Shown: positions 10,378-60,052 of the stretch, piece by piece
How positions within the stretch are numbered: position 1 is the first letter of the stretch
Layout: each line of letters begins with the position of its first letter
From: Ferranicluibacter rubi
GTDB taxonomy: Bacteria; Pseudomonadota; Alphaproteobacteria; Rhizobiales; Rhizobiaceae
Assembly (NCBI RefSeq): GCF_011603255.1
Contig: NZ_JAANCM010000013.1
Coordinates: 1 to 64,000 of the forward strand
Direction: 5' to 3'
DNA length: 64,000 nucleotides
Program-made: the position numbers and the translations under genes
The notes under the pieces: generated by a model
Told to the model about the DNA's origin: nothing
Databases searched by the model: none
Seen by the model: the letters and a program-made list of their open reading frames with translations, nothing else

Positions 10378-10382
10378 ATACA

Positions 10383-34837: not shown

Positions 34838-34839
34838 CG

Positions 34840-37383: not shown

Positions 37384-37407
37384 GGCATCGACTATTGGGA
37401 GGAGGGC

Positions 37408-39605: not shown

Positions 39606-39810
39606 CGATGTTCCTGTCTTGATGACGGCGTCGGGCGACGCATTGACGATGGAAACGATGTAGAGCGTCGGTTACGGATTGCTCATCGCGCCGCGTTCAA
39701 GATTATTTTATCGCCGTGTCGGTAAGGTTCCGGCAATCGTCTGACACTTGCAGCCATGTCCGGGCAGAAGCGTTTGGAGGCCGGGGTGGGGATGGTGTAG
39801 ATCAGGGCGC

Positions 39811-42421: not shown

Positions 42422-42546
42422 TGCAGTTCCAAATCACGCATTGATCTAATATCTATTATTCTATTTAAGCTCTATCGATCATACATGATAGCGCGTGTTT
42501 TGACGGAAGGATTCTGGGGGCTTTTCCCGGAAATGAAGGGGTGTTT

Positions 42547-43746: not shown

Positions 43747-43843
43747 TCAGAGATCGACGCTCTGGCCTTGCCCGGTCGATCAGAGATCGACGGTCTCGCT
43801 GTGTCGGGTCGATCAGAGATCGACGACCTGCCCGTCGAACGCA
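43745..43843. repeat. Three 33-bp tandem repeat units at a convergent gene end
   Basis: Units start at 43745, 43778 and 43811. A 15-base core, GATCAGAGATCGACG, is identical in all three; the other 18 bases of units 1 and 2 agree at 12 positions, while unit 3 diverges. The first unit contains the stop of the cyclase gene and the third encodes, on the minus strand, the VDL-stop end of the MBL hydrolase. Each unit would encode VDL-stop, so the array looks like tandem duplication of that gene tail. Confidence 0.85.
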
Positions 43844-44643
43844 GAAAAGGCGCCGGGGAAGAGGATCTTTGCCTGTTTCTCCACGGCATCGAGCGCGTCG
43901 TCGGTGCGGAACGGGGCGTGATGCATGAAGGCGACGCGTTTGGCGCCGGCAGCTTTCGCAAGACGGATGCCCTGTTCCCAGGAGGAGTGGCCGTAGCCGA
44001 CATGCCGTTCCATCTCGGCGTCGTCATACATGGCGTCGTAGATGAAGAGGTCGCAGCCTTCGATCAGTTCGAGCACGGCGGGGTCGAGCGTTCCGGGGTG
44101 ATGTTCCGTATCGGTGATGAGCGCGCAGGCGCGTCCGCCCCATTCGACGCGGTAGCCGACGGCACCGCCGGGATGGTTGAGGCTGCCGGTGCGGATCTCG
44201 ACGCCGCGGACGGGGGTGAGCAGATCGCCCGAGCGGAAATCGCGCGCGTCCAGCGCCGCGCGGCAGATATCGGGCTCGACCGGAAACCAGGGCGGCCGCA
44301 TGAATTCGCCGATCATCTGGCGCGTCGACATGCGCCCGGCGAGATGCCCCGACCAGAGCGTCACGTCGGCGGAATGGTCATAGAGCGGCGGGAAGAACGG
44401 CAGGCCGATGATGTGGTCGTAATGACAGTGCGTGAAGAACAGGTTGAACGCGGACACACCTTCGGCCTTGAGCGCGACGCCGGCCGGCATCAGGCCCGAG
44501 CCTGCATCGAAGATCAGGCGTTCGCTACCGCATTGCATCTCGATGCACACGGTCCGGCCGCCATAGCGCTGGAACTCGGCCCCCGCCACCGGCAGGCTTC
44601 CCCGAACGCCCCAGAAACGTACGCGAAACAGATTGTCGTTCAC
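43813..44643 (-). CDS. MBL-fold metallo-hydrolase
   Basis: A 276-residue metallo-beta-lactamase-fold hydrolase. It opens with VRFWGVRGSLPVAGAEFQRYGG and has the zinc motif THCHYDHIIGLP, a later SLNHPGGAVGYRVEWGG, ITDTEHHP, and a terminal FMHHAPFRTDD His. This subgroup resembles the cAMP-phosphodiesterase/RNase Z-like MBL proteins often linked to signalling, but the substrate is not established. The start is uncertain: GTG at 44641-44643 gives a family-like N-terminus, with only weak AAGCAAAG before it; the frame stays open upstream to 44880. The 226 bases to the divergent phosphoesterase hold both promoters. Confidence 0.82.
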   Translation of the reverse strand: MNDNLFRVRFWGVRGSLPVAGAEFQRYGGRTVCIEMQCGSERLIFDAGSGLMPAGVALKAEGVSAFNLFFTHCHYDHIIGLPFFPPLYDHSADVTLWSGHLAGRMSTRQMIGEFMRPPWFPVEPDICRAALDARDFRSGDLLTPVRGVEIRTGSLNHPGGAVGYRVEWGGRACALITDTEHHPGTLDPAVLELIEGCDLFIYDAMYDDAEMERHVGYGHSSWEQGIRLAKAAGAKRVAFMHHAPFRTDDALDAVEKQAKILFPGAFSAFDGQVVDL

Positions 44644-44869
44644 ACTTTGCTTCAGTTTCGACCCGCCCCTTTCGGTGGCTTGCCAACACTGTCCCTCTGC
44701 TGTTGCGTGGGTCAGGATCGACCCCGCCGGCTTCTGTGTCCGGCCGTATTTTTGACATGTTATCCAAACTGTCCACATGAAGCGAGACGGGCATTCGCTT
44801 TTTCTCGCTTCTCGTGTCAGAGACAGGGAAACGCTATCCGATCCCGCTTTCGAAACCGTTGCCTTCGTC

Positions 44870-46600
44870 ATGTCTTTCAAGGAATTTCCGCCGATCGCCG
44901 TGATCGCCGACGCTCATGTTCACGATCCCGCTACCGACTTCGGTTTTCCCGGTGCGGCCCATACGGGCGGTCTGTCCGTTCGGCCGCTGGCGGAGGCCGC
45001 ACGGTCCACACGGGTGTTCAACGAGAGCCTGCAGGCTTTCCGCACGGCGCTCGACGATGTCGCGTCGCGCGGCATCCGGCATGTTGTCCTGCTGGGCGAT
45101 TATACCGATGACGGGCAGGTTGCGACCACGGCGGCGGTTGCCGTGATCCTCAAGGACTATAATGCGCGGCACGGCATGGCGTTCTTCGCCTTGCCCGGAA
45201 ACCACGATATCTTCGCCGATGCCGGCCGGCATCGCACCAAGCGGTTTTTGGAAGCGGACGGATCGAGTGCGGTGGTGACGAGCCATCCGGTGAACACTTC
45301 GGGCGCCACCCTGCCGCCGGGGATCCCGCGCGATCTCGCGGTGACGGTGTCGCCCGGGATGTTCTGCCCCGGCTATCCCGACGGGCTGATGCCGTTCGGG
45401 GAGCACGGCTATTTCCCGCAGCCATCCTATCTTCACTGGGAGACGCCTTTCGGTCTCCAGGGCGATAACGAAAAGCGGATGTTCACCGCAATCTCATCGA
45501 GCGGAGCGACGCGACGGTCGCTGATGGAGGCCTCCTATCTGGTGGAGCCGGTCGAGGGGCTGTGGCTGCTGATGATCGACGCGAATGTGTTCGTGCCGAT
45601 CGATGGATCGGACGACTGGGTCGACAGCACCTCTGCCGGCTGGAATGCGATGATGGTGTACAAGCGTCATGTCATCGACTGGATGACCGATGTCGGTGCG
45701 CGGGCCGCGCGTCTCGGCAAGCGTCTCGTTGCCTTTTCCCATTATCCCGCGCTCGATCCGCTGGATGGAACCCGGGCGGCGGAGATCGCGCTGCTCGGGC
45801 CCACGGCAACATCGGGCCGTATTCCCGGCGGCGCGGTCGGAGAGGCGTTCATCGCGGCAGGGATACCCCTCCATTTCAGCGGACATCTTCACGTCAACGA
45901 CACGGCGCAGATGCGGCGCGAGGACGGGTTCTTCGTGAACGTCGCCGTCCCCTCGCTCGTCGGCTTTCCCCCGGCTTACAAGATCCTGACGCTGCGTGAG
46001 GGCACGGCCGAGATCGAGACGGTGTCGCTCGGAGATATGTCGATGGATGGGGCGATCGGAGCGCTCTATGCCGCCGAAGTGCGGCGCACCGGCGTGAAGA
46101 CCGGGGGAATGGCCGAGGCGACCCGCTATGGCGACTTCCTCTCGGCCCATATAGGTCATCTCGCCTGGCGGCGGCACCTGAAGCGGGAATGGCCGGCAGC
46201 GCTCGGCGCGTTGCTACGGGCTGCCACGCTTGGCGATCTCGCTCAGCTGGCAATGCGGCCCGCGGTTCCGATGGAGGATGTCGCTGCCATGCTTCCGGTC
46301 GCGCGTGGTCAGGCGAACGCTTCGGAGGAGGGCAGTCCGGAGGCACTGTCGGCCATCGCGTTCCTTGGCGACTGGTATCGCCTGCGGATGGCAAGCGATT
46401 TCGGGCTGGCTTCGGTCTCACGGCCGCGGCTGCGGTTCTACGACAAGCTCTCGGCGCTTTATCAGGCGCAGGCTTGGCCTGATGGCTCGGCGCAAAGCGG
46501 GATTGCGGCGATGCTGTCGCTCTTCGAGGCCTACCGCAGTGGGTTGCCCTCGAAGGATTTCCGGATCGACCTGCGCACCGGCGATATCACGGCGCGCTGA
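44870..46600 (+). CDS. Calcineurin-like metallophosphoesterase
   Basis: A 576-residue protein. The N-terminal half is a calcineurin-like phosphoesterase with all metal motifs: VIADAHVHD, LLGDYTDDG, LPGNHDIFAD, AFSHYPALD and FSGHLHVND. The domain contains a long insertion (about 115-215). From about residue 400 to the end there is a helical domain of no family I know. No signal peptide or membrane helix was seen. Such enzymes act on phosphodiesters including cyclic nucleotides; here it lies among cyclase and cNMP-binding genes. ATG 44870 was chosen at the first conserved residues. Confidence 0.85.
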   Translation: MSFKEFPPIAVIADAHVHDPATDFGFPGAAHTGGLSVRPLAEAARSTRVFNESLQAFRTALDDVASRGIRHVVLLGDYTDDGQVATTAAVAVILKDYNARHGMAFFALPGNHDIFADAGRHRTKRFLEADGSSAVVTSHPVNTSGATLPPGIPRDLAVTVSPGMFCPGYPDGLMPFGEHGYFPQPSYLHWETPFGLQGDNEKRMFTAISSSGATRRSLMEASYLVEPVEGLWLLMIDANVFVPIDGSDDWVDSTSAGWNAMMVYKRHVIDWMTDVGARAARLGKRLVAFSHYPALDPLDGTRAAEIALLGPTATSGRIPGGAVGEAFIAAGIPLHFSGHLHVNDTAQMRREDGFFVNVAVPSLVGFPPAYKILTLREGTAEIETVSLGDMSMDGAIGALYAAEVRRTGVKTGGMAEATRYGDFLSAHIGHLAWRRHLKREWPAALGALLRAATLGDLAQLAMRPAVPMEDVAAMLPVARGQANASEEGSPEALSAIAFLGDWYRLRMASDFGLASVSRPRLRFYDKLSALYQAQAWPDGSAQSGIAAMLSLFEAYRSGLPSKDFRIDLRTGDITAR

Positions 46601-46623: not shown

Positions 46624-47085
46624 CTATTCGAGTTCGCGCACGCGGCTGCGGGCTTCCGTCAGCTCGCTCGTCGTGTGGCTCAGGCGGTCGGCCAGCACGC
46701 GCATGATCTCGATGGTGATTTCGGGAAAGTCCGTGAGGAGCTTGATGAAGTGGTCCTTGCGGATGCGCAGGGCCTCGACTGCCGTCGTCGTCTTCACGGT
46801 TGCCGTTCGCGAGACGTCGCAGAGGATGGCGATCTCACCGACGATCGAATTGCGCTCGACTTCGGCCACGCGGATCGGGCCGGTCGAGGATTCGACCAAA
46901 ATCTCTGCCTTGCCGTCCAGCACGACATAGGCCGCATCGCCGGCATCGCCCTGGTGGAAGAGCGTTTCGCCGATGCCGTAGCTTACGCGGTCGGAGGTGA
47001 AGGCCAGCAGCTTCAGCTTGCCGGCTTCCACACCGGAAAAGAGCGGCACCCGCCGCAGCATTTGCACTTCGTCCTTCAGCAACAT
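46624..47085 (-). CDS. Cyclic nucleotide-binding domain protein
   Basis: A 153-residue single cNMP-binding domain without an output domain. The phosphate-binding cassette IVGEIAILCDVSRTATV (about 83-100) holds the Glu and Arg that contact the ribose-phosphate of cAMP or cGMP. The C-terminal end (ADRLSHTTSELTEARSRVRELE) is a probable coiled coil for dimerisation or partner binding. It follows the degenerate ABC exporter by 109 bases on the same strand, closing the long operon; a direct repeat TGCCAGTCTT (47151-47160, 47169-47178) lies in the gap. It may be the regulatory subunit of that exporter. Confidence 0.87.
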   Translation of the reverse strand: MLLKDEVQMLRRVPLFSGVEAGKLKLLAFTSDRVSYGIGETLFHQGDAGDAAYVVLDGKAEILVESSTGPIRVAEVERNSIVGEIAILCDVSRTATVKTTTAVEALRIRKDHFIKLLTDFPEITIEIMRVLADRLSHTTSELTEARSRVRELE

Positions 47086-47194: not shown

Positions 47195-49978
47195 TCACGC
47201 GGTTACCAACTGTTTAAAGACACCGTCATTGTTTACCAGATTGGCGTGCGTGTCATCCTCCACGAGCGCGCCGCGATCAAACACCAGCACACGCTCGAAC
47301 AATTTCGTCAGTCCGTTGTTCGACAGCACCCAGATAACCGCCGGATTGGCGCCGTTGCGTGTGAGCAGCTTCATCACGTCACGGACGACCTCGTCCTGCA
47401 AGCGGTGATCGAGGCTCGGGAGCGGGCGGTTGAAGACATAGTAGTCCGAGCGGCGAATAATCGCGCGGGCGAGGTTCAGTTTCTGGCGCTGGACAGCCGT
47501 CAGGCGCTTGCCGCCGGCGCCGAGATTGAAGTCGAGACCGATATCCAGCACCTGCTCGATCAGGCCCTGCGAATTCAGCAGCGACGACACGATGGCGCGG
47601 ATGCGCTTGGAGCCGTCGGTGTGCTTATGGCTGATACGGCCGAAGAGCACGTTGTCCATAAGGCTCGCGGAGGCGAGGTATTTTTCCGGATCGTAGCGCT
47701 CGATGTCGTGGGTCAGATCTTCCGGCATGTTCTCGTGGAACTGACGGCGGACCTCGACGATTTGCGCCATGAGTTCCTCGGTCAAGAGACCGAAGCGGTG
47801 GCGGGGCTCGACATAGTTGAAGCTCAGGCGGATGATCTGGTAGCGATCGTCCTCCGTCGCGGTCTCCAGCCCCTTGCCGGCATATTTCTGAAGCAGCAAC
47901 TGGTAGGCCGGGATGTCGTCGGCCGTCATGAAGGTCAGCTGCTGGAAGAAGGGGTGGTCCGGCGGCAGGTCGGCGAAGAGTTCCACCGCGTTCTCGGCGA
48001 TCTGGTAGCCCATGTCGAAGAGCACGCGGTCGATGCCGGTTTCCGAGACGACCTTTCGGAAATAGGGGTTCTTGGCGATGGCGCGGCCGGCCACGCTCGG
48101 GGCGGTCGCCGTGCCGAACAGCAGGTTCTCGCCGACGGTGGCTTCCATATTGTATTCGCCGGGTTCGAAATAGGCGATCAGCCCGTTGAGTCCGGCTTCT
48201 TCCAGCTCCTCGCGCAACGCCTGGCGCATGTCCACGATGCTGGCCGCAAATTCGGGCCGGTCCGCCGGGTCGATATTGGTGCGCAGCGCAAGGTCGAGAA
48301 TGTCCTTCGATAGCTGCACCGTGTCGAGCACGGCGAGGATCGAGGGGAAGAGATCCTCGGCCTGCGTCGCGCCGGCGGCAGTGTAGTCGATCCAGTCGCC
48401 ATTGACGTCATAGTCGGGATTTCCGGCGAGCTTGGCTTCCGTCACTTCCCATTTGCGATGGGCGGCAAGGCTGCCCTCGTAGGTGGCGGCCGCCAGCGGC
48501 GCGTGCTTCAGGCCGTAGAGCAGGTTGTCGCGCAGCGAACCGTAGAAGAAGTAGGTATCGGACGATGCATAGGTGATGGCCCGACCGACGACGGATTCCG
48601 GCATGTGCAGCAGGTCTTCGCCGCCAAGCGTCACCTTGCCGCCCTCCGGCCAGATCAGGCGGCCGAAGGCCTCGGCCAGCACGTCGCCACCGCTCGCGGC
48701 ACCGCCGATGATGGCCACCTTCTCTCCGGGTTTGATCTCGACCGAGACATGCTCCAGCAGGCGGGCGCCGCTGTCATCGGCAAGGGTGAGGCCGGAGGCC
48801 GCAAGGGCGCCAGACGCATCGTTTCCGCCATCGCTGCCGCCTGCCGCAGCACCGGCAAGGCCCGCACCGGCGGCCACGGCGCCAACGGCGACGGCACCCG
48901 TGGAAATGGCCTGGATCTTCGGATCGATCAGCGGCTCGACCGTGAACTGTTCGACCACCTGGACATATTTCACCTGCACGTCCTGACGCAGCTGGTCCCA
49001 GTCGATCAGCTCTTTCAGGGGCCCTGGCAGATCCTTGTAGGCGCTGATGACGGCCACGAGCTGGCCGATGTCGAGCTGTCCGCGCAGGGCAAGATAACCG
49101 CCGATGCAGTAGAACAGGAAGGGCGTCAGCTGCGCGAGGAAGTTGTTGATGAACTTCACCATGAACTTCCACTGGTAGAGATCGTAGCGGATCTTGTAGA
49201 TCCGCCCCAGCCGCGCGGCCACGTCGGCGCGCTCGTAGTTCGAGGTGTCGTAGGCGTGGATGGTGCTGATACCGTCAACGATCTCGCTGACGCGGCCGGC
49301 AAGCTCGCGCGCGGTGATCTGGCGCTCGCGGCCGAGCACCAGCAGGCGGCGGCGCATGCGCGGGATGATGGTCGCCTGGATGCCGACCATGAAGGCGGCG
49401 ATGAAGCCGAGCCACATGTTCTGCATGAAGATAAAGGCAAGCGCCGTCAGGGCCTGTCCGCCGAGCAGAGCCGGCGAGACGAAGGCGTCGCCCGTGAAGC
49501 CGCCGAGCGGTTCGACCTCGTCCTTCACCATCGAGGAGACTTCCGCCCCCTTCATGCGCTTGAACTGGGTCGGCGGGAATCGGAGGATGCGATCGATGAG
49601 TTCGAAGCGGATGCGGCGCAGCAGGCGCTCGCCGAGCCGGCCCTTGTAGGTGTTGATGTAGAGCTTGAAGAGGCCGTTGATGATGACGAGGAGGAGAAAG
49701 ATGACGCTCAGTGCATAGAGCGTTTCCATGCGCGTCAGGTCGATGCCGTTGAACAGTGTGACGTTGCCGATCCAGGGCAGGGAGAAGGAAATGTCGAAGA
49801 ACCGTTCGGTCGCGCCCGGCTGCTCGAAACCTTTGCCCTGTATGGGCCCGTTGACGATCTGCTTGGGCAGGTCGAACGATAGGAAGTAGGGGATCATCGA
49901 GATGGCGACGATCATAAGGATCCACATTTGCTGCTTGCGCGTGTGAGTCCAGATGTAACGGGTAAGGCGGATATCCAT
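47195..49978 (-). CDS. ABC exporter-like protein with degenerate, expanded nucleotide-binding domain
   Basis: A 927-residue protein. Residues 15-320 form an ABC-exporter membrane domain (six helices; KGRLGERLLRRIRFELIDR, GAEVSSMVKDEVEPLGG). The following NBD-like region is about 540 residues, over twice the norm. Its Walker A reads IIGGAASGGDV (about 423-432; no Lys or Ser/Thr), the signature LTAVQRQKLNLARA (about 825-838) lacks SGG, Walker B is YYVFNRPLPSLD (no D-E pair) and the H-loop reads LSNNG with no His. The post-Q-loop motif occurs three times: SLRDNLLYG, TVGENLLFG, SLMDNVLFG (about 483, 617, 774). ATP hydrolysis seems unlikely. A Gly/Ala-rich linker lies at about 365-400. Confidence 0.85.
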   Translation of the reverse strand: MDIRLTRYIWTHTRKQQMWILMIVAISMIPYFLSFDLPKQIVNGPIQGKGFEQPGATERFFDISFSLPWIGNVTLFNGIDLTRMETLYALSVIFLLLVIINGLFKLYINTYKGRLGERLLRRIRFELIDRILRFPPTQFKRMKGAEVSSMVKDEVEPLGGFTGDAFVSPALLGGQALTALAFIFMQNMWLGFIAAFMVGIQATIIPRMRRRLLVLGRERQITARELAGRVSEIVDGISTIHAYDTSNYERADVAARLGRIYKIRYDLYQWKFMVKFINNFLAQLTPFLFYCIGGYLALRGQLDIGQLVAVISAYKDLPGPLKELIDWDQLRQDVQVKYVQVVEQFTVEPLIDPKIQAISTGAVAVGAVAAGAGLAGAAAGGSDGGNDASGALAASGLTLADDSGARLLEHVSVEIKPGEKVAIIGGAASGGDVLAEAFGRLIWPEGGKVTLGGEDLLHMPESVVGRAITYASSDTYFFYGSLRDNLLYGLKHAPLAAATYEGSLAAHRKWEVTEAKLAGNPDYDVNGDWIDYTAAGATQAEDLFPSILAVLDTVQLSKDILDLALRTNIDPADRPEFAASIVDMRQALREELEEAGLNGLIAYFEPGEYNMEATVGENLLFGTATAPSVAGRAIAKNPYFRKVVSETGIDRVLFDMGYQIAENAVELFADLPPDHPFFQQLTFMTADDIPAYQLLLQKYAGKGLETATEDDRYQIIRLSFNYVEPRHRFGLLTEELMAQIVEVRRQFHENMPEDLTHDIERYDPEKYLASASLMDNVLFGRISHKHTDGSKRIRAIVSSLLNSQGLIEQVLDIGLDFNLGAGGKRLTAVQRQKLNLARAIIRRSDYYVFNRPLPSLDHRLQDEVVRDVMKLLTRNGANPAVIWVLSNNGLTKLFERVLVFDRGALVEDDTHANLVNNDGVFKQLVTA

Positions 49979-50126: not shown

Positions 50127-51281
50127 TCACGCGTCCGACAGCATCTCGCGCAGGATATCGGCCGTCCTGTCGGCGCCCTCAAGGTCGATCGAGAGATCGC
50201 CTTGCTGGAAGGCCGGGGCATCGAGACCGGAGCGGATGGCCGCGGCGACCCGCTCGGCCGAAATGTCGGAATCGCTGAGCACTGTCACGAGGCCAAGGCG
50301 CTCCAGGCGTTCGGCACGGGCCGCCTGCTCGGTTTCGCCACCTGTCGTGAACGGCACGACGATCGCTCGGCAGCGCGCCCGCAGAATATCGCAGACCGTG
50401 TTGTAGCCGGCCTGCGACACCGAGAGGGTCGCGCCCGAAAGGAGGCTCGCGAAGTCTGGGCGAAAGCGGAAGACTTCGACATTGCCGACGACGCCGGCGG
50501 CGATCGCATCGTGGTCGGCCTGCGCGAGGTTGGGGCCTGTTATCAGCGCCCAGGGCTTTTCCGGCCAGAGGATGGCCGTCGCGCCCACGACCGCGTGCAG
50601 CACGTGCCGGCCCACAGCGCCGCCGCCGGCCGAGACGATCACCTCGAAACGGTCTGCCGGGGCGTCGGGCTGCGGCGGGGCGACGAGGCCGGTATAGACC
50701 ACCTTGTCGGCGATCTCGTCGGCATGGGGAAAGGTCTCCTCCAGCCGAGCGAAGGTCGGGTCGCCGTGGATGAGGATGCGGTCGAAGTAGCGCTCGATAT
50801 AGTCCACCGTCTCGCGGTCGCGCTCCGGCTTCGGGCGCTTTTGCAGGATATCGCGCACGGAAGCGAAGATTTTCGGCGGCTCGGGCATGGCGCGGGCGGC
50901 GTCGAGGAAGGGTAGAAGCTCGAAGCGCATCTGACGCCGGCCGAACGGGAAGGCCTCGGTGAGGATGGCATGCGGCTTGATCTCGTGGAGGATGGCGAGC
51001 AGCCGGTCGCGACGCATGTCGCGGAAGGCGTCATCGACCGGATTGCCGTCCATGTCCTGCAGGGCGGAAAAGCCCTCGTCGCTGGAGACGACGGGCGGCA
51101 GCGCGATGTGGCGGACGGTCGGGCCGGGGAAGCCGGACACGGGCTTGCCACCGGTGACGACCGTCACGTCGAAGCCGCGCACGGCCAGCGCGTTGGCAAT
51201 GCGGCTCGCGCGGGTCAGGTGGCCGATGCCGAGCAGGTGCTGGACGTAGAAGAGAACGCGTTTCGTGTCCGGATCGGTCAT
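50127..51281 (-). CDS. MurG/GT28-like glycosyltransferase
   Basis: A 384-residue GT-B enzyme. The N-terminal QHLLGIGHLTRASRIANAL is the acceptor-side loop, and the C-terminal VSQAGYNTVCDILRARCRAIVVPFTTGGETEQ is the donor-binding motif of the MurG-like group. ATG 51281 was chosen because it overlaps the GT4 stop as ATGA; a start at 51296 adds five residues. Third of three glycosyltransferases in one operon; substrate unknown. The gap 49979-50126 to the degenerate exporter has no recognisable feature. Confidence 0.86.
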   Translation of the reverse strand: MTDPDTKRVLFYVQHLLGIGHLTRASRIANALAVRGFDVTVVTGGKPVSGFPGPTVRHIALPPVVSSDEGFSALQDMDGNPVDDAFRDMRRDRLLAILHEIKPHAILTEAFPFGRRQMRFELLPFLDAARAMPEPPKIFASVRDILQKRPKPERDRETVDYIERYFDRILIHGDPTFARLEETFPHADEIADKVVYTGLVAPPQPDAPADRFEVIVSAGGGAVGRHVLHAVVGATAILWPEKPWALITGPNLAQADHDAIAAGVVGNVEVFRFRPDFASLLSGATLSVSQAGYNTVCDILRARCRAIVVPFTTGGETEQAARAERLERLGLVTVLSDSDISAERVAAAIRSGLDAPAFQQGDLSIDLEGADRTADILREMLSDA

Positions 51282-52522
51282 TCGGCTGTCCGCCATTCGG
51301 TTTCAAAGAGATTGCGAAGTTGGGTGATGCTGGTGTGGTAGTCGAAATTCTTGCGGACGCGCCGTTCGGCGGCGTCGCCCAGCTGCTTGCGGAGATCGGG
51401 ATCGCGGATGGCGCGCTCCAGGGCGTTCGCGATGGCTTCGGGGTCCTCGGGCGGCACCAGCAGGCCGTTTTCCCCGTCGGACAGAAGCTCCGGTACGCCG
51501 GAGATCGTGGTGGAGAGGCAGACGAGGCGCTGGCTGGAGGCCTCGACGATCACGTTCGGCAGGCCGTCGCGGTCGCCATCCGCGCCGATGCGGCAGGCAA
51601 GTGCGAAGATGTCGGAGGCCCGATAGCGCGCCAGAACGTCTTCCTGTGCCATGGCACCCAGCCAGTCGATGCGGTCGGCGATGCCGAGGTCGGTCGCCAT
51701 GCCCTTCAGGGATTTGGCGAGCGTGCCGCCGCCGATATGAACGAAGCGCCAGGCGAGATCGGCAGGCAGGCTTGCTAAGGCCTTGAGGAGCAGGTCGTAA
51801 CCCTTCTTCTCCACGGCGCGGCCGACGCTGAGAATGACGACGGGGTCGGCGGGATCGCTGCCGTCGCGCGGGCGGCGCTCTTGTGTGAAGGGTGCGAAGC
51901 GGGCCAGATCGAGGCCGTGATAGCTCAGATGCACGGTCGTCTTGTCGGCGGCCAGCGTGCGCAGGTGGTGGAAGCCGGTTTCGGTGCAGGTCACGGTCCA
52001 GCGGTTGGTGGCGAGCTTGTCGGCCAGCTCCCAGTCGGGCGAGGTCCAGATGTCCTTGGCATGGGCCGAGCATGTCCACGGGATGCCGGTCAGAAGGCTG
52101 GTATAGGCGGCGACGGATGCGGGCGTGTGGATGAAGTGGGCGTGCAGCCAGTCTCCACCCTCCGGCCATTCCGCGGCAAGGACGGCGGCCTGGCCGAAGC
52201 GGCGGACCCGGTTGCGCGAGACATCGCGCGCCAGGTCGCGGCGGAAGGCGGAGAGGGCCTTGCGGAAACCGGGACGCCGGACCGCCGCCCACAGGCCCCG
52301 CAGCACGCGCAGCGGCTCGTGATGCAGATATTCGGGGAGGTAGAGAACCGGCGCGCGGATCTCGTCGTGAACGGGATGGCGCTTCTTGTCGGTCGGGTGG
52401 CGCATCGAAATCAGCGACAGCTCCAGCCCCGATTGCTCCAGACCCAGCAGTTCCTGGGCGATGAAGGTTTCCGACAGGCGCGGATAACCCTTCAGGATGA
52501 CGACGATCTTGCGGCTTTGCAT
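51278..52522 (-). CDS. Glycosyltransferase family 4 protein
   Basis: A 414-residue GT4-type enzyme opening with VVILKGYPRLSETFIAQELLGLE, a hallmark of exopolysaccharide and colanic-acid-type transferases. It has AHFIHTPASVAAYTSLLTGIPWTCSAHAKDIW and a donor site DRDGLPNVIVEASS, where the first Glu of the EX7E motif is Asp. It lies 6 bases from the upstream transferase gene and overlaps the next, so the three are made together. Confidence 0.9.
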   Translation of the reverse strand: MQSRKIVVILKGYPRLSETFIAQELLGLEQSGLELSLISMRHPTDKKRHPVHDEIRAPVLYLPEYLHHEPLRVLRGLWAAVRRPGFRKALSAFRRDLARDVSRNRVRRFGQAAVLAAEWPEGGDWLHAHFIHTPASVAAYTSLLTGIPWTCSAHAKDIWTSPDWELADKLATNRWTVTCTETGFHHLRTLAADKTTVHLSYHGLDLARFAPFTQERRPRDGSDPADPVVILSVGRAVEKKGYDLLLKALASLPADLAWRFVHIGGGTLAKSLKGMATDLGIADRIDWLGAMAQEDVLARYRASDIFALACRIGADGDRDGLPNVIVEASSQRLVCLSTTISGVPELLSDGENGLLVPPEDPEAIANALERAIRDPDLRKQLGDAAERRVRKNFDYHTSITQLRNLFETEWRTAE

Positions 52523-52528: not shown

Positions 52529-53737
52529 TCAGGCCTTGACGACGCTCAAATGGTCGCGTTCGCGCCCGTCTAGCATGTTGCCGACGATCCGGGAAATATT
52601 ACTCAGGCCGTCGAGATGCATGTTGCTGGCATGGTGGGAGGGCGGCGCGCGGTGCGGCAGGGCATGAAGCGCGGCAGCCAGCCGCTTGGGGTCCGCAGCC
52701 TCCTGCGGCAGCAGCATATCGACGAGCCCGAGTTCGCTGGCGCGGCGGGCACGGATCAGTTGCTCCTCGCGCGGGACGACGCGCGGCACGATCAGGGCCG
52801 GTTTGTCGAAGGAGAGGATTTCGCAATAGGTGTTGTAGCCGCCCATGGCGACGACGCCGCTGGCATTGGCGATCAGCTCTTCCATACGGTTGTCGAACTC
52901 GATCACCGTCAGGTGCGGGGTCAGCGCGCATTTCGACAGCAGCTTGTGGCGCTGCTTTGCCGGCATGTAGGGGCCGAGCACGACGAAGGAGGGGTGCGTC
53001 AATGTCGGGTCGGCGCGGTAGGCGTCCACCACGTCGTGGATGAGGTCGGAGCCATCGCCGCCGCCGCCGGTGGTGATGAGGATATAGTCGCCCTTCGGCT
53101 TGTGCTCCGAGCTGACGTCGAGCGAGACGCTGCGCTGGAGGAAACCGACGAAATCCATGCGGGCGCGGACCTGCGGCGGTACGTCGAGGCCGACCAGCGG
53201 ATCGTAGAAATCAGGCGGGCCGTAGACCCAGACCGTATCGTAGAACTGGCCGATCTTGCGCATCACGTCGTTGCGCTTCCACTCGGCGTCGAGCAGGTGC
53301 GGCGCGTCCATGACCTCGCGCAGGCCGAGCACCAGCGTCGTGCCCTGATGCTTGAGGTAGGACAGCGTGTCCTCGACCTCGCCGCGAAGCCCCATCGGCT
53401 CCTTGTCGACGATGAAGATGTCGGGCTTGAAGGTCTCCGCCGTGTGCCGGATGATCGACCGGCGCATCTTCAGCGTCTCGTTCAGATCGATATGCCGATC
53501 CATCGAGGTGTATTCGCCGTTGCGCAGCTTGATGACGCTCGGAATCTTCACGAAATCGACGCGGGCCCGGTAGTCATAGGCACCGGCGATGGTCGCGCCG
53601 GAGATGATCAGGACCTGCAGGCCGCGATAGTCCTCGACGAGCGCATGCGCGATCGCCCGGCACCGTCGCAGGTGGCCGAGACCGAACGTATCGTGGCTGT
53701 ACATGAGGATGCGGGCATTCTCGATGCGACGCGTCAT
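52529..53737 (-). CDS. Predicted glycosyltransferase (COG4671-like, MurG fold)
   Basis: A 402-residue protein with YSHDTFGLGHLRRCRAIAHAL at the N-terminus, ITTGGGGDGSDLIHDVVDAYR in the middle and GVVAMGGYNTYCEILSFDKPALIVPRVVPREEQLIRARRASELG near residue 295-340, the donor-site pattern of MurG-like transferases. It resembles the enzyme at 50127 in layout but not closely in sequence. ATG 53737 has GGAG eight bases upstream. It begins 45 bases after the peptide-ABC permease gene, so one long operon is possible. Confidence 0.85.
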   Translation of the reverse strand: MTRRIENARILMYSHDTFGLGHLRRCRAIAHALVEDYRGLQVLIISGATIAGAYDYRARVDFVKIPSVIKLRNGEYTSMDRHIDLNETLKMRRSIIRHTAETFKPDIFIVDKEPMGLRGEVEDTLSYLKHQGTTLVLGLREVMDAPHLLDAEWKRNDVMRKIGQFYDTVWVYGPPDFYDPLVGLDVPPQVRARMDFVGFLQRSVSLDVSSEHKPKGDYILITTGGGGDGSDLIHDVVDAYRADPTLTHPSFVVLGPYMPAKQRHKLLSKCALTPHLTVIEFDNRMEELIANASGVVAMGGYNTYCEILSFDKPALIVPRVVPREEQLIRARRASELGLVDMLLPQEAADPKRLAAALHALPHRAPPSHHASNMHLDGLSNISRIVGNMLDGRERDHLSVVKA

Positions 53738-53782
53738 CGGCACGGCTCCACGTACAGGGCAGGCTTCATCACCATGGAAAAC

Positions 53783-54994
53783 TCACTTGTACGGATCAGC
53801 CGCATCTCTAAGTCCATCGCCCAGAAAGTTAAAGGCCAGGATGACGAGAATGACCGGGATGGTTGGGTAGAGCAACCATGGATAAAAAGCGATGGTACTG
53901 ACGCTGCGCGCTTCCGTCAGGAGAATGCCCCAGCTGGTAATCGGAGGACGGAGGCCGAGGCCGAGGAAACTCAAGGCGGTTTCGCCGAGAATCATTGCCG
54001 GGATCGACATTGTCGCGCTGGCGATCAGATGCGACATGAAGCCGGGCACGAGGTGACGGCCGATGATGCGGCTGGTCTTTGCCCCCATCAGCTGTGCCGC
54101 AAGCACGTAGTCCTCCTCGCGCAAGGCCAGCAGCTTGGAGCGCACCGCGCGGGCAAGGCCGGTCCAGTCGAGAAGGCCGAGAATGGCGGTGATGCCGAGA
54201 TAGATGACGAGGGGGCTCCACGTCACCGGCATGATGGCCGCAAGCGCCATCCACAGCGGAATGCTCGGGATCGACTGCAGTACCTCGATGACGCGCTGGA
54301 CGATGAGGTCGAAGACGCCGCCCTTGTAGCCGGCAAGGCCGCCGATGACGATGCCGAGAATGAAGCTCATCGTCACGCCGAGCAGGCCGATGGTGAGCGA
54401 GATGCGGGCGCCGTAAAGAATGCGCGACAGCACGTCGCGACCGAGCCGATCGCTGCCGAGCATGAAGAACTGCCCGCCCTGTGCGGGACACACGAGATGG
54501 AGCGAGGCGGGAACGAGGCCCCAGAAATGATAGGCGTCGCCGCTGCAGAAGAAGCGCAGCTTTTCGATTCGCTCGGGATCTTCCGTATAGACGCGGCGCA
54601 GCGTGTCCATGTCGAGGTTCATCGTGCGGCCATAAACGAACGGGCCGACGAACTGGCCGTCATCGAACAGGTGCACCTGCTGCGGCGGCGCGTGGATGAA
54701 ATCGACGTTGCGGGTATGCAGGTTGTAGGGCGCCAGGAACTCGACGACCGTGACCATCGCATAGAGCAGAACGAGGAAGACCAGCGAGAGGACGGCAACC
54801 CGGTGCCGTTTGAACTTCCACCACATCAATCGAAGCTGGGACGCCTCATAGACGTGTTTCTGCTCCTCGCTCATCGTTTCCACGGCCATCGGATCGAAGG
54901 GGGCTGCGGAAACGAAGTGCGTCAGGGGCTGGCCGGGTGCGGGCAGGCAGGCGGGTGTGGGGGACGTCGTGGACGGCGGATGCGTTGCGGTCAC
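53783..54994 (-). CDS. Oligomer/peptide ABC transporter permease (OppC-like, long periplasmic loop)
   Basis: A 403-residue DppC/OppC permease with the usual C-terminal membrane domain (GSDRLGRDVLSRILYGARISLTIGLLGV, then LAREEDYV-like ALREEDYVLAAQLMGA). Between the first and second helices lies a loop of roughly 95 residues, twice the normal length, with two Cys (FCSGD and LVCPA) that may pair in the periplasm. A Pro/Thr-rich cytoplasmic N-terminus of about 45 residues precedes helix 1. Overlaps the partner permease by ATGA. Confidence 0.88.
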   Translation of the reverse strand: MTATHPPSTTSPTPACLPAPGQPLTHFVSAAPFDPMAVETMSEEQKHVYEASQLRLMWWKFKRHRVAVLSLVFLVLLYAMVTVVEFLAPYNLHTRNVDFIHAPPQQVHLFDDGQFVGPFVYGRTMNLDMDTLRRVYTEDPERIEKLRFFCSGDAYHFWGLVPASLHLVCPAQGGQFFMLGSDRLGRDVLSRILYGARISLTIGLLGVTMSFILGIVIGGLAGYKGGVFDLIVQRVIEVLQSIPSIPLWMALAAIMPVTWSPLVIYLGITAILGLLDWTGLARAVRSKLLALREEDYVLAAQLMGAKTSRIIGRHLVPGFMSHLIASATMSIPAMILGETALSFLGLGLRPPITSWGILLTEARSVSTIAFYPWLLYPTIPVILVILAFNFLGDGLRDAADPYK

Positions 54995-55989
54995 TTCGTG
55001 CTGCCCCCCTGGAGCCGGATGCGCGGATCGAGCAGCGCCAGCGCGATGTCGGAGACCAGCACGCCGATGACGGTGAGGAAGGCAAGGAACATCAGGAAGG
55101 ACCCGGCGAGATACATGTCCTGGCTCTGCAGCGCCTTGATGAGCATCGGCCCGGTGGTTTCCAGCGACAGCACGATGGCCGTGATTTCGGCACCGGAGAT
55201 GATCGCCGGCAGGATCGAGCCGATGTCGGCGATGAAGAAGTTGAGGGCCATGCGGAGTGGGTACTTCACCAGTGCCCGGAAGGGATGAAGACCCTTCGCC
55301 TTCGCCGTCACCACATATTGCTTCTGTAGTTCATCCAGAAGGTTGGCGCGCAGGCGACGGATCATGCCGGCCGTGCCCGCGGTGCCGATGATGATGACGG
55401 GGATCCAGAGATGCTCGAGGATCGACAGGAACTTGTCCCAGCTCATGGGCTGCGACAGATATTTCTGGTCCATGAGGTGCCCGATGGACGTGCCGAACCA
55501 CATGTTGGCGAAATACATCAGGATCAGCGCGAACATGAAATTGGGAATGGCAAGGCCAAGCAGGCCGAGGAAGGTCAGGCCGTAATCGCCCCAGCTGTAC
55601 TGGTGGGTGGCCGAGTAGATGCCGATCGGGAAGGCGATGAGCCAGGTGAAGATGATGGTCACGAAGGAGACGAGGACCGTCAGCCAGAGCCTGTCACCGA
55701 CGACGTCGGAAACTGGCAGCTGGTATTCGAACGAGTAGCCGAAATCGCCCTGCAACATGCCGGCGACCCAGTGGAAGTAGCGCATGATCGGCGGACGGTC
55801 GAAGCCGTATTCGGCCCGCAACGCCTCGATCTCCGCCATATCGACGCCTTCGCCCTGGGCGCGCATTTCCGAGATGTAGCTCTCGAAATAATCACCCGGA
55901 GGAAGTTCGATGATGGTGAAGACGAGGGCCGAGATAATGACGAGCGTCGGGATCATGGCACTGACGCGCCAGAGAATGTATCGCAGCAT
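54991..55989 (-). CDS. Oligomer/peptide ABC transporter permease (OppB-like)
   Basis: A 332-residue OppB/DppB-type permease: MLRYILWRVSAMIPTLVIISALVF at the N-terminus, GDFGYSFEYQLPVSDVV, six helices and the C-terminal FLAFLTVIGVLVSDIALALLDPRIRL. It forms the translocation channel with the OppC-like protein. It starts 3 bases from the stop of the binding-protein gene and ends overlapping its partner. Confidence 0.9.
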   Translation of the reverse strand: MLRYILWRVSAMIPTLVIISALVFTIIELPPGDYFESYISEMRAQGEGVDMAEIEALRAEYGFDRPPIMRYFHWVAGMLQGDFGYSFEYQLPVSDVVGDRLWLTVLVSFVTIIFTWLIAFPIGIYSATHQYSWGDYGLTFLGLLGLAIPNFMFALILMYFANMWFGTSIGHLMDQKYLSQPMSWDKFLSILEHLWIPVIIIGTAGTAGMIRRLRANLLDELQKQYVVTAKAKGLHPFRALVKYPLRMALNFFIADIGSILPAIISGAEITAIVLSLETTGPMLIKALQSQDMYLAGSFLMFLAFLTVIGVLVSDIALALLDPRIRLQGGSTK

Positions 55990-55992
55990 CGA

Positions 55993-57915
55993 TCAGCTCA
56001 CCTTGTCGCCGAGCCAGAACGTATCCGGCATGTAGACCCCGAAGAAGCAGGTCGGATCGAAGCCGTAGAGGCCGTGTTCCGGAACGTTCTGCATGCGCGA
56101 CGTATGAAGGATCGGCTGGAGCGTGGCGTTGACCATGCCGATGGAATAGACCTGATCTGTATAGATCGACAGCATCTCGTGCCAGATCCGCGTGCGGCCC
56201 GCATTGTCAGCCGTGCGGCGCCATTCCTTCAGCAGGTCCACCAGCTTCTGGGCCTCGGGGAGTTCCGGCGCGTGACCGAACTGGCCGAGCGACAGGTAAT
56301 GCATGCCCCAGACCGGCCATTGCAGCTGGTCGTCGGTGCTCGGGGCCAGCGGGCTCGGGCTCATGTCGGCCGTGGGCACGCCGTTGGGGAGTCCGAGCCA
56401 CATGGACATCATGATTTCGCCGCCCATGGTGCGGTTTCGGAAGACTTCGCGCTGGGAGGTCTTGATGAAGAGCGGAATGCCGATCTTCGCCCAGTGATCG
56501 GTCACGAGTTCGAGAACGTCGGTTTCCAGCGTGCTCTCGCCGGCGGTTTCCACCACGATCTGCGCGAGACGGCCATCCGGCAGAAGGCGCATGCCGTCCT
56601 CGTTGCGGCCGGTCAGGCCTGCCTCGTCCAGCAGGCGGTTGGCCTGCTCGGTGTCATGCTGCGACCAGGCGGCGGCATATTCCGGCTTGTAGAGTGGGCT
56701 CTCCGGCAGCACGGTATCGGCGCTTTCCTTGCCGAGGCCGTAGAAGGCAACCATGTTGATCTCGCGCCGGTCGATGGCGAGCGAAAGAGCGCGGCGGACG
56801 CGGACGTCGCGCAGGAGGCCCTGCCAGACAGGGTCGCCGTAATTGAGGTTCGGCAGCAGCGCGACGCGCGATCCTTGCGTGCGCTTCCACAGCTTCACCT
56901 TCACCGGATACCGCTTTTCGGAATCCTTGATGAAGGCATAGTCGGTAAAGTCGATGTTCTGCGCCTGCAGGTCTGCTTCGCCGCCACCGGTCTTTGCGGC
57001 GATGATGCCGGGTGTGGAGACGTTGAGGACGACGCGGTCGATATAGGGAAGCTGCATCCCGTTTTCGTCGACGCGGTGGAAGAAGGGGTTCCGGTCGAAG
57101 ATGAACTGTTCGGCGGGCGAGGCCGTCGTGTTCTGCCACGGGTCGAGCGTCGGCAGGTCAGGATTGTCGGGCCGGTTCTGGCGCGACATCTTGATGTGCA
57201 GGTCCACCCACTTCTTGACCCGGTACTTCTTCATGAATGTCTTGAGCTGTTCCTCGGTCTGGTAAGTCTTGTGGAACTGCTTCATGTAGGCGGCGGGCAA
57301 CAGCAGGATCAGCGGCAGTGCCGCCGCCAGGTTCGGCAGGAAATCGGGGTTGGGCGCATCCCAGCTGTAGCGCACGGTGCGCGCGTCGAGAACCTCGAAA
57401 CGCGGCGGCTTGCCGTCCGCCAGAAGCTCCTGCTGCACGCCGCCCTTGCGCAGGTCCTCGTTCAGGACCACGTCTTCCCAGGTATACCGGAAGTCTTCCG
57501 ACGTGAGCGGGCTTCCGTCCGACCAGCGATGGCCTTCGCGAATGCGGAAGGTGAAGACCTTCTCGCCCTCGACCTCGCAGGCCTCCAGAATATCCGGCTG
57601 GAAACTCAGCTTCTCGTCGTAGCCGACCAAGCGGGCATAGCCGTTGATGAACATCGCGCGGATGTCCTTTTGGCTGCCGATGAGGATGCGGATGGAACCG
57701 CCATAGCTGCCGGGCGTGCGGCCCATAGCGGCAAGGTTGACGATGCGCGGCGTCTTCGGCACGCGCTCGATCATCGGCGGCAGGGTTCCGGCAGTGATCT
57801 TTTCGAGAAGGATTTCGGGCTCTGTCCCCGCGGCCATGGCGTCGCGCGGAAGCATAAGCCGGGGCAGGGCGATGGCGGAGGCGAGGAGGCCGAGGGTGGT
57901 GCGGCGCTTGATCAC
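55993..57915 (-). CDS. Large periplasmic substrate-binding protein (SBP family 5)
   Basis: A 640-residue family 5 binding protein, long for the family and similar in size to YejA-type receptors. The signal MIKRRTTLGLLASAIALPRLM has a twin-arginine-like start and ends near residue 29 (AMA-AGTEPE). Core motifs: FTFRIREGHRWSDGSPLTSEDFRYTWEDVV, DVRVRRALSLAIDRREIN and a late GLPNGVPTADMSPSPLAP. It overlaps the ATPase stop by ATGA. The ligand may be a peptide, muropeptide or oligosaccharide; the neighbouring glycosyltransferases make a glycan plausible. Confidence 0.9.
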   Translation of the reverse strand: MIKRRTTLGLLASAIALPRLMLPRDAMAAGTEPEILLEKITAGTLPPMIERVPKTPRIVNLAAMGRTPGSYGGSIRILIGSQKDIRAMFINGYARLVGYDEKLSFQPDILEACEVEGEKVFTFRIREGHRWSDGSPLTSEDFRYTWEDVVLNEDLRKGGVQQELLADGKPPRFEVLDARTVRYSWDAPNPDFLPNLAAALPLILLLPAAYMKQFHKTYQTEEQLKTFMKKYRVKKWVDLHIKMSRQNRPDNPDLPTLDPWQNTTASPAEQFIFDRNPFFHRVDENGMQLPYIDRVVLNVSTPGIIAAKTGGGEADLQAQNIDFTDYAFIKDSEKRYPVKVKLWKRTQGSRVALLPNLNYGDPVWQGLLRDVRVRRALSLAIDRREINMVAFYGLGKESADTVLPESPLYKPEYAAAWSQHDTEQANRLLDEAGLTGRNEDGMRLLPDGRLAQIVVETAGESTLETDVLELVTDHWAKIGIPLFIKTSQREVFRNRTMGGEIMMSMWLGLPNGVPTADMSPSPLAPSTDDQLQWPVWGMHYLSLGQFGHAPELPEAQKLVDLLKEWRRTADNAGRTRIWHEMLSIYTDQVYSIGMVNATLQPILHTSRMQNVPEHGLYGFDPTCFFGVYMPDTFWLGDKVS

Positions 57916-59855
57916 GGCTGGAGCTCCTTCACGTCGGCATTCCGGCTCGCCAGCACCCAGTGACCATTGCCGAGATCGGCGGGCGCAAGGCCGGCATCGC
58001 TTTCGCCCGGCCGGAAGGCGGCGTTCCAGCGCTTCTTGTCGGAGGCCCCGCCGGCATTGAGCGCGACGAAGTCGAGCGGCCGGTCAAGATCCGGGAAGGG
58101 CACGGCGGCCAGCAGCGCCTTGGTGTAGGGGTGCACCGGCGCGCGCATCAGCTGTTCGCGCGGTGCAAGCTCGACGATCCGCCCGGCGCACATGACGGCG
58201 ATGCGGTCGGCCATGTAATCGACGACGGCGAGATTGTGCGAGATAAAGAGATAGGTCAGGCCGAGTTCCGCCTGCAGGTCCTTCAGGAGGTTGAGGATCT
58301 GCGCCTGCACGGACACGTCGAGTGCGGAGACCGGCTCGTCGCAGATCAGCAGTTCGGGGCCGAGTGCTAGAGCGCGGGCAATGCCAATGCGCTGGCGCTG
58401 CCCGCCGGAGAAGCTGTGGGGATAGCGGTTCATGTGCCGCTCATTGAGGCCGATGGCCTTCAGCAGCGCCTTCACCGTCTGCTGCCGGCTCTTCGGATCG
58501 CCGCGGCGGTGGATCTCGAGCGGTTCGCTGAGGATGTTCTGCACCGTCATGCGCGGCGAGAGCGATGAGACGGGATCCTGGAATATCATCTGCATGCGGG
58601 TGCGCAGTTTGGCCAGCGACTTGCCATGGGCCTCGCGGATGTCGATCGGGCCATCGGCCGAGTTCAGCATGATCGAGCCGGTGTCGGGAGAGAGCGCCCG
58701 CATCAGGATCTTGCTGAGCGTCGTCTTGCCGCAGCCGCTTTCGCCCACAAGCCCCAGACATTCGCCGCGACGTATGTCGAAGCTCACGTCGTCTACCGCA
58801 CGATACTGGTGGGCCTCCCCCTTCTTCCACCAGCCGGACTTGCGGCTGGAAAACGTCTTGCCGACATGGCGCACGGAGAGCAGCACATCCTCGCCCGGTG
58901 CCGGAAGCGTGTCCTCGACGCGGGGCAGCGGTCGCGCAGGCGCACGTTCGCCTTTGCGCCGCACGATCAGGCTCTCGACGTTGACGGGTACCTCGCGCAG
59001 CGCCTTCAGGCGCTCGCCGGGCTTCATGTCGAAATGCGGCACGGCTGCCATCAGCCCCTTGAGATAGGGGTGGGACGGATTGCGGAAGATATCCTCAACC
59101 GAACCCGCCTCCATGATTTCGCCGTGATAGATCACCACGACCTCGTCGGCCATGTTGGCGACGATTCCGAGATCGTGGGTGATGAGCAGCACGGCCATGT
59201 TGAAGGTCGATTGCAGGTCCTTGAGCAATTGCAGGATCTGCGCCTGGATGGTCACGTCGAGGGCCGTCGTCGGCTCGTCGGCAATGAGAAGCGACGGCTT
59301 GCAGATCAGCGCCATGGCAATCATCGCGCGCTGTCGCATGCCGCCGGAAAGCTCGAACGGATACATGCCGAAGGCACGCTTGGGGTCGGGGAACCCGACG
59401 AGACGCAGCATCTCTTCGGTCTGTTCCCGCTGTCCCGGCTTGTCGACGTTGCGGTGGATGCGCAGGCTTTCGCTGATCTGGTCGCCGATCGTGTGGAGTG
59501 GCGACAGCGAGGTCATCGGCTCCTGGAAGATCATGCCGATGCGGTTGCCGCGAAAGGCGCGCATATCGGCACCCTCGGGCGCGAGCGCTGCAAGATCGAT
59601 GACACCGCCGGGTGCCGTCTCATCCTTGAAGAGGATCTTGCCGCCGATCCTCGCCGATTTCGGCAGGATGCCCATGACGGCCTGGCTGATCACGGATTTT
59701 CCGGACCCGGACTCGCCCACGAGCGCCGTGACCTTGCCCGGCAGGACCCGGAGGCTGGCCTTTCGAACCGCGTCGATCTGGCCGCCGAACATGGCGAAAG
59801 AAACGCTCAGGTCCTCGATCCGCAGCAGGTCTCCGCCTGATGTCATGCCTGCCAT
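57912..59855 (-). CDS. Dual ATPase of the peptide/oligomer ABC importer (YejF-like)
   Basis: About 647 residues with two complete nucleotide-binding domains. First: Walker A GESGSGKS, signature ELSGGMRQRAMIAMAL, Walker B LLIADEPTTALD. Second: GESGCGKTT, FSGGQRQRIGIARAL, LLICDEPVSALD. Both halves look active, in sharp contrast to the degenerate exporter downstream. The start is unsure: ATG 59855 or 59846; the TTG at 59906 is less likely. First gene of the importer set, leading a minus-strand run that reaches 46624. Confidence 0.9.
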   Translation of the reverse strand: MAGMTSGGDLLRIEDLSVSFAMFGGQIDAVRKASLRVLPGKVTALVGESGSGKSVISQAVMGILPKSARIGGKILFKDETAPGGVIDLAALAPEGADMRAFRGNRIGMIFQEPMTSLSPLHTIGDQISESLRIHRNVDKPGQREQTEEMLRLVGFPDPKRAFGMYPFELSGGMRQRAMIAMALICKPSLLIADEPTTALDVTIQAQILQLLKDLQSTFNMAVLLITHDLGIVANMADEVVVIYHGEIMEAGSVEDIFRNPSHPYLKGLMAAVPHFDMKPGERLKALREVPVNVESLIVRRKGERAPARPLPRVEDTLPAPGEDVLLSVRHVGKTFSSRKSGWWKKGEAHQYRAVDDVSFDIRRGECLGLVGESGCGKTTLSKILMRALSPDTGSIMLNSADGPIDIREAHGKSLAKLRTRMQMIFQDPVSSLSPRMTVQNILSEPLEIHRRGDPKSRQQTVKALLKAIGLNERHMNRYPHSFSGGQRQRIGIARALALGPELLICDEPVSALDVSVQAQILNLLKDLQAELGLTYLFISHNLAVVDYMADRIAVMCAGRIVELAPREQLMRAPVHPYTKALLAAVPFPDLDRPLDFVALNAGGASDKKRWNAAFRPGESDAGLAPADLGNGHWVLASRNADVKELQP

Positions 59856-60052
59856 TCCCCACTTATTCTCTCCATCCGGTGCGGATGGTGGCTGGCTTTG
59901 CGCCAATACCTTATGGGAAGACTATCGCAGGCATTTCGGCCTGTCCATGACCGCAATGTAAACCGCACGGTCACGCCTTCCCGGCGTCGGCTGCGGGTCT
60001 AGCGTCGTCATGTATCGTTTTTTTGAAATGATGCCCCGCGGCTAAACAATTT

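Follow-up and report, generated by a model that had tools for sequence, protein, structure and literature searches.

We analysed a 64,000-nucleotide window (the whole stretch of DNA presented here) from Ferranicluibacter rubi and characterized two adjacent genes whose products may form one membrane complex. The first, at 47195..49978 on the minus strand, encodes a 927-residue ATP-binding cassette (ABC) exporter-like protein, here called ABCx, which its translation, Pfam matches and alignments mark as a probable pseudo-ATPase. The second, at 46624..47085 on the same strand, encodes a 153-residue cyclic-nucleotide-binding protein, here called CNB, that matches PF00027 only and has no helix-turn-helix. 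Further window features written as start..end lie on the minus strand unless the plus strand is given.

The reading frame of ABCx is intact. Translation of positions 47195-49978 yields 927 residues and then a stop, in agreement with an earlier reading of the window made from its letters alone (the sequence-only reading); the mechanical open reading frame is longer (1008 residues), and the start at 49978 is backed by the relatives. ABCx has both domains that define a type I ABC exporter, each above its Pfam cut-off: ABC_membrane (PF00664; 79.5 bits, cut-off 28) and ABC_tran (PF00005; 31.9 bits, cut-off 25), the latter confined to residues 408-505, which correspond to the first 80 of 137 model positions. 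The exporter-type membrane domain occupies residues 1-345 (48944..49978), with PF00664 covering residues 80-312 and long helices in the structure model. The N-terminal half of the degenerate nucleotide-binding domain (NBD) follows at residues 389-493 (48500..48814), as supported by PF00005 and by the model (predicted local distance difference test, pLDDT, of 77-92 in blocks of ten), and contains the first copy of the Q-loop helix. Across 83 representatives, conservation is highest in the membrane domain (mean pairwise identity 0.515, compared to 0.35-0.36 for the other folded parts and 0.21 for the linker), which the sequence-only reading had called well conserved. A Pfam scan found no peptidase domain in ABCx.

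We sampled the family as 157 distinct proteins, 101 order-level or named loci and 121 loci in all, after removing two duplicates (L037 = L087 and L039 = L116) from initial sets of 159, 103 and 123, respectively. The 50 class- and phylum-level proteins come from the 30 best-scoring loci and 20 hand-picked ones; one partial protein (L161) is counted among the 157 and lies outside the tree and hhalign sets. We scored seven catalytic residues (the Walker A lysine and serine/threonine, the Q-loop glutamine, the signature SGG, the Walker B aspartate and glutamate, and the H-loop histidine) against three canonical exporters encoded in the F. rubi genome, which were aligned with the family and are the sole controls. 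The window's ABCx keeps none of the seven. Its Walker A remnant, GGAASGGD (48683..48706), has G for the lysine and D for the serine/threonine; the Q-loop glutamine is replaced by S; the signature remnant, LTAVQ (47489..47503), has TAV for SGG; the Walker B remnant, YYVFNR (47426..47443), has N-R for D-E; and the H-loop histidine is replaced by S. The three remnants were located by alignment, and the replacements that the sequence-only reading had listed are all among these changes.

The degenerate state extends across families. None of the seven residues is kept in 109 of the 157 distinct proteins, one in 15, two in 19, three in 9 and four in 5; no protein of the 157 keeps more than four, and SGG is kept in none. 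Close homologues with canonical motifs, one of the findings that would refute the sequence-only reading, are missing from this set, and even distant members keep at most four residues. Where the Walker A lysine is kept, it is mostly in the form GSGK followed by D or E; the lysine and the serine/threonine occur together in one protein (L178), and the Walker B D-E pair in two (L150 and L178). The relatives with GSGK[DE], together with Walker B forms resembling N-E-A-T, are what one would expect if ABCx were still an ATP-fuelled pump that runs on unorthodox residues, an acid in place of the Walker A serine/threonine and an asparagine in place of the Walker B aspartate. We consider this very unlikely, as K, Q, SGG, D-E and H are all missing at once from the window's ABCx and from most of its close relatives, and among the 107 distinct proteins that are named or order-level, 101 score 0/7.

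On a membrane-domain tree of the 83 representatives, the lysine label requires at least eight changes, four of them forced by well-supported branches, although the tree is a quick one with long outgroup branches. Because the label needs repeated changes, and because more distant relatives keep up to four of the seven residues, we infer that the family once had a motor that decayed gradually and several times over. The fused, distant relative L178 (31% identity), which has the Walker A K-S and the Walker B D-E and lacks SGG, Q and H, is possibly an intermediate state.

The soluble part of ABCx is also enlarged, to about 540 residues, as the sequence-only reading had noted for the NBD region. 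About 270 of these residues (494-765; 47684..48499) form a family-specific, mostly helical insertion that follows the Q-loop helix and precedes the signature helix, supported by a profile and by its own model. The motif that normally follows the Q-loop once occurs three times: SLRDNLLYG (copy 1; 48512..48538), TVGENLLFG (copy 2; 48113..48139) and SLMDNVLFG (copy 3; 47639..47665). Copy 1 was placed by alignment and profile-profile comparison, copy 2 by its profile-profile comparison with copy 3, and copy 3 likewise by profile-profile comparison. Within the family, copies 2 and 3 match with E = 2.8e-14 (probability 98), copies 1 and 2 with E = 2.4e-6 (probability 89) and copies 1 and 3 with E = 2.7e-6 (probability 88.5), and the lead-in to copies 2 and 3 is repeated as well (E = 4.6e-12). 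Since the profile-profile E-values range from 2.8e-14 to 2.7e-6, the three copies are more than chance resemblances, and by these comparisons the earlier proposal of a triplicated motif holds: they are true repeats, with copy 1 the weaker member. In three relatives (G007, G010 and G016), the insertion profile matches a second time at copy 3, with a shift. We found no support for homology between the signature/Walker B segment and the lead-in of copies 2 and 3 (best E 0.004).

An AlphaFold2 model of the whole ABCx has a mean pLDDT of 80.8 (77-93 by blocks of ten over residues 391-910), and a model of residues 492-800 alone has a mean of 87.1. The whole model matches ABC exporters in Foldseek (E about 2e-13), with a TM-score of about 0.36 by query length and a large root-mean-square deviation. 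As to the idea that the motif copies lie in duplicated subdomains, residues 606-749 of the insertion align weakly with the helical part of several ABC domains, in agreement with the repeats, but the scores are too low to stand alone, and a structure search with the model of the insertion alone gave no convincing match.

Sequence constraint indicates that ABCx is maintained. For the membrane domain, the first NBD part, the insertion and the last part, respectively, the ratio of nonsynonymous to synonymous substitution rates (dN/dS) is 0.029-0.030, 0.032-0.076, 0.040-0.049 and 0.021-0.022 in comparison with two close congeners; with a more distant congener (G006), the values in the same order are 0.10, 0.09, 0.19 and 0.13. 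The linker is loose throughout (0.39-0.68 in the three congener comparisons). These ratios show purifying selection on ABCx. A pseudogene or sequencing artefact was ruled out by the low dN/dS and by the lack of an internal stop in any listed match.

ABCx relatives occur in 29 of 61 genomes (the organism's own and 60 relatives; E up to 1e-60), and the insertion profile recovers the identical 29. At the class level, the profile matches 131 of 385 genomes, the class being Alphaproteobacteria going by the named relatives; at the phylum level it matches 31 of 398 genomes, all 31 inside the class, with the share of the 398 that lies outside the class not given. Named relatives belong to Rhizobium, Sinorhizobium, Agrobacterium, Mesorhizobium, Phyllobacterium, Shinella and environmental Brucella, and include 245 plasmid records, among them pSymB of Sinorhizobium meliloti. 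Three genomes of one family carry one, three and two diverged ABCx copies (L171-L176), and all six copies are fused to a CNB domain.

The CNB domain is the constant companion of ABCx. It lies directly downstream in 107 distinct loci and is fused to the ABCx C-terminus in 14, for 121 of 121; at every locus the match examined is the ABCx neighbour itself. The fused share is not representative, as the 20 hand-picked loci favoured divergent or long frames; the fusion in L056 was confirmed by Pfam. The CNB domain match begins no more than 322 nt downstream in 105 of 121 loci, and in two (L055 and L186) CNB overlaps ABCx in another frame. The window's CNB matches cNMP_binding (PF00027) with 66.5 bits against a cut-off of 27.5. 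Its ligand pocket is preserved throughout the family: across 123 loci, two of them duplicates, the glycine and the arginine are kept in all 123 and the glutamate in 117 (aspartate in the other 6). At the level of these residues, the pocket is shown to remain intact while the ATP site decays.

The S. meliloti copy of CNB is annotated as a 'Crp/Fnr family transcriptional regulator'. Pfam finds no DNA-binding domain in CNB, and a median of only 7 residues follows the domain in the 123 loci. Because CNB has no DNA-binding domain, the label is misleading as judged from its domain content, and a Crp/Fnr transcription factor identity was rejected. The closest solved relatives of CNB include PKG, PKA regulatory subunits and the SthK channel. 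High-scoring CNB proteins are present in 29 of 29 genomes with ABCx and in 0 of 32 without; this threshold (1e-40) was set after seeing a gap between 9.9e-43 and 7.5e-34, while at the preset threshold of 1e-15, 59 of the 61 genomes have a CNB-like protein. The other co-occurrence thresholds were fixed before each search.

Upstream of ABCx lie three glycosyltransferase genes: GT28a (50127..51296; PF04101), a family 4 glycosyltransferase (GT4; 51278..52522; PF00534) and GT28b (52529..53743; PF04101). We found GT28a in 73, GT4 in 73 and GT28b in 72 of the 101 distinct neighbourhoods, 26 of which hold less than 22 kb. One set of the loci was drawn wholly from relatives chosen for having ABCx, and one search kept the best 80 of at least 575 relatives, many of them close Rhizobium species, so that the neighbourhood counts are not independent. 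Using Fisher tests on the 61 genomes, uncorrected for shared ancestry, GT28b occurs in 28 of 29 genomes with ABCx and in 0 of 32 without (p 1.5e-16), and GT28a in 27 of 29 and 1 of 32, respectively. As a control, the window's Ku gene occurs in 16 of 29 and 13 of 32 (p 0.31). The picture persists after dropping six extra same-genus genomes. In five draft genomes (G007, G010, G016, G025 and G054), the best GT28b match is located on another contig than ABCx.

A metallo-beta-lactamase-fold hydrolase (43813..44880; PF12706) is found in 53 of the 101 neighbourhoods, and in 25 of 29 genomes with ABCx compared to 1 of 32 without. The mycobacterial phosphodiesterase Rv1339 has a beta-lactamase fold. 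Because Rv1339 is reported to lower cyclic AMP (cAMP) (PMC9293780), the hydrolase is a candidate phosphodiesterase. Beyond the glycosyltransferases, an oligopeptide-type importer (53783..59906) comprises two permeases (53783-54994 and 54991-55989), a binding protein (55993-57915) and a double ATPase (57912-59906); the first permease and the ATPase were identified by Pfam, and the second permease and the binding protein are named after the matching S. meliloti genes. The second permease occurs in 28 of 29 genomes with ABCx and in 3 of 32 without, and the importer may recover glycan or peptidoglycan fragments. These genome counts show that GT28a, GT28b, the hydrolase and the importer co-occur with ABCx beyond adjacency.

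A class III nucleotide cyclase (60053..61393; PF00211), the only one inside the window and one of five in the whole 5.47-Mb genome, has a counterpart near ABCx in 42 of 101 loci. In two loci, a cyclase with a 2Fe-2S domain (PF00111) lies directly upstream of ABCx (L039, 6138-7829; L042, 6272-8131). Both combine a hydrophobic, probably membrane-spanning N-terminus with the 2Fe-2S and class III cyclase domains, an architecture that suggests a redox input. They resemble S. meliloti CyaC, a membrane cyclase with a haem-binding anchor that feeds a defined cAMP target (PMC10463352), in that they too appear from sequence to be membrane proteins.

A calcineurin-like metallophosphoesterase (44777..46600, plus strand; PF00149) is the divergent neighbour of CNB and occurs in 13 of 101 loci. 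A further glycosyltransferase (39748-40911, plus strand; 55 of 101 loci) precedes a polysaccharide-deacetylase-like protein (40908-41660, plus strand; 53 of 101 loci), whose Pfam match (E 0.039) is below the cut-off. In S. meliloti ml46, about 23 kb hold ABCx, CNB, the three glycosyltransferase genes, the importer, a cyclase and the hydrolase, together with a deacetylase, another glycosyltransferase and DUF3095. A DUF3095 protein is likewise encoded in the window (62987-63979). In ml46 (L138), GT28b and GT28a each match in two frames (9420-10623 and 11898-13020) and are absent from the gene table, while both are single-frame in S. meliloti 2011 (L137) and S. medicae (L139); the two-frame matches could reflect either real breakage or an assembly error. 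Between the hydrolase and an OmpW-like gene, the window encodes a GGDEF protein (42541-43746), which is a likely diguanylate cyclase and thereby another second-messenger gene beside this cyclic-nucleotide locus. Farther away are non-homologous end-joining genes (33998-38199), namely two Ku genes (33998-34762 and 37411-38199) with a LigD-type ligase (34840-37383) between them.

We compared ABCx with known systems. It resembles type I ABC exporters (MsbA, PCAT1 and TmrAB) in the profile and fold of its membrane domain and partial ABC domain, and differs from them by its 0/7 catalytic residues, its repeat-bearing insertion and its constant CNB partner. HetC, a cyanobacterial peptidase-type exporter, is described as needing its CNB domain for exporter function, an example of an exporter that depends on such a domain; unlike ABCx, however, HetC has a peptidase domain, an essential ATPase residue and an N-terminal CNB domain that binds ppGpp rather than cAMP (PMC10986499). 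We rejected a HetC-type identity, as ABCx has no peptidase domain and none of the catalytic residues. The known cAMP target of S. meliloti is the transcription factor Clr (PMC10463352), whereas the ABCx-linked CNB has no DNA-binding domain. CNB is also similar to the CNB portion of the TIR effectors of Pycsar, a system in which ABCx finds no match; an anti-phage system is made less likely by the stable association with glycosyltransferases.

In S. meliloti, MsbA2 (SMb21191) is MsbA-like and, like ABCx, is encoded downstream of glycosyltransferase genes. It was ruled out as ABCx by its operon and its pSymB position, a comparison of location rather than of sequence (PMC3687685, PMC12239276): ABCx is at 842 kb on pSymB of strain 2011, and in strain Rm1021 the MsbA2-operon gene SMb21188 lies close to 938 kb (PMC3687685). 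Another gene, SMb20813, which has been described as an msbA homologue (PMC10945364), may be the S. meliloti ABCx. One paper connects smb20804 and smb20805 with capsular polysaccharide. In the parts of the literature retrieved by family and by S. meliloti locus tag, we found no description of the ABCx family.

Several exporters have one degenerate nucleotide-binding site, and ABCx might accordingly be the degenerate half of a heterodimer, paired with a canonical half encoded elsewhere while CNB only tunes the pair. Degenerate halves are well known (PMC7756269), and the genome has other ABC genes that match ABCx, several by both membrane and ABC domains. TM287/288, TAP and CFTR share degenerate motifs with ABCx but keep a second site active, as is described for the known degenerate-site exporters (PMC7756269); the sole ABC domain of ABCx is degenerate. 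In the usual head-to-tail dimer, the active site relies on a signature contributed by the degenerate half, and SGG is missing from ABCx. Using tblastn with three canonical exporters, we found another exporter-type gene near ABCx in only 1 of 101 distinct loci, which makes a canonical partner half less likely, although no genome-wide partner search was made. We therefore regard the heterodimer as doubtful.

The conserved degeneration, the low dN/dS and the near-absence of an exporter-type neighbour agree with the sequence-only reading that ABCx is a repurposed fold rather than an ATP-driven pump. The CNB partner and the glycosyltransferase link, which that reading had missed, point to cyclic-nucleotide control. 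ABC folds can be retuned, as the degenerate-site exporters show and as does CFTR, an ABC exporter turned gated channel (PMC7756269). Based on the sequence evidence, we propose, with a probability of roughly 45%, that ABCx and CNB form a pseudo-ATPase membrane complex under cyclic-nucleotide control that gates or turns on a glycan pathway. ABCx would keep its exporter membrane domain and dimerize like other half-exporters, and its ABC domain, which has gained two additional Q-loop/helical units, would no longer bind and hydrolyse ATP normally and would instead serve as a docking and lever domain. A class III cyclase would make the cyclic nucleotide that binds CNB, and CNB would be attached at the C-terminus of the pseudo-ATPase domain, the arrangement found in the natural fusions. 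Ligand-bound CNB would then switch the conformation of the membrane domain, and this switch would gate the downhill movement across the inner membrane, or start the synthesis, of a glycan made by the linked glycosyltransferases. The phosphodiesterase-like hydrolase would terminate the signal.

The same linkage and co-occurrence data fit the nearest rival, a scaffold without transport. ABCx and CNB would then move nothing and would be a membrane platform for assembling the linked glycosyltransferases or for controlling them allosterically, and CNB would act as its cyclic-nucleotide switch; the retention of a large, constrained soluble domain after loss of the motor is also consistent with it. 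The membrane domain, however, is conserved more strongly than any other part and has exporter-type helices, which exceeds the needs of a mere anchor, and we think a scaffold rather unlikely. A more specific form of the pseudo-ATPase complex is an ABC conduit, gated by a cyclic nucleotide, for a cell-surface glycan or its lipid-linked precursor. Its control nucleotide would have been exchanged, the ATP motor dying repeatedly across Alphaproteobacteria while a cyclic-nucleotide sensor turned into a constant and at times fused subunit; we hold this form only tentatively.

Several observations weigh against the pseudo-ATPase complex. The Walker A lysine is kept in 28, the Walker B glutamate in 29 and the H-loop histidine in 16 of the 157 proteins, and because some relatives keep these residues, part of the family may still bind nucleotide. 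ABCx could also have as its partner a canonical exporter half encoded elsewhere in the genome. CNB domains can take other ligands, as that of HetC binds ppGpp and, in the published account, is not stabilized by cAMP (PMC10986499). No cyclase was found near ABCx in 59 of 101 distinct loci, and GT28b is not near it in 29 of 101. The best NCBIfam matches of the hydrolase are RNase Z models (66 bits), ahead of the cyclic-nucleotide phosphodiesterase NF041851 (41.6), and both are far below cut-off. Finally, the ABCx model is a monomer judged from summary values.

If the proposed pseudo-ATPase complex is correct, the annotations 'ABC transporter ATP-binding protein' and 'Crp/Fnr family transcriptional regulator' would both be misleading, and ABCx would clearly exemplify an ABC exporter fold that works without its ATPase. 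For S. meliloti, 28 adenylate cyclases are reported, and the separation of their signals is described as unclear (PMC10463352). The ABCx-CNB complex would provide a concrete candidate membrane target of cyclic-nucleotide signalling other than a transcription factor.

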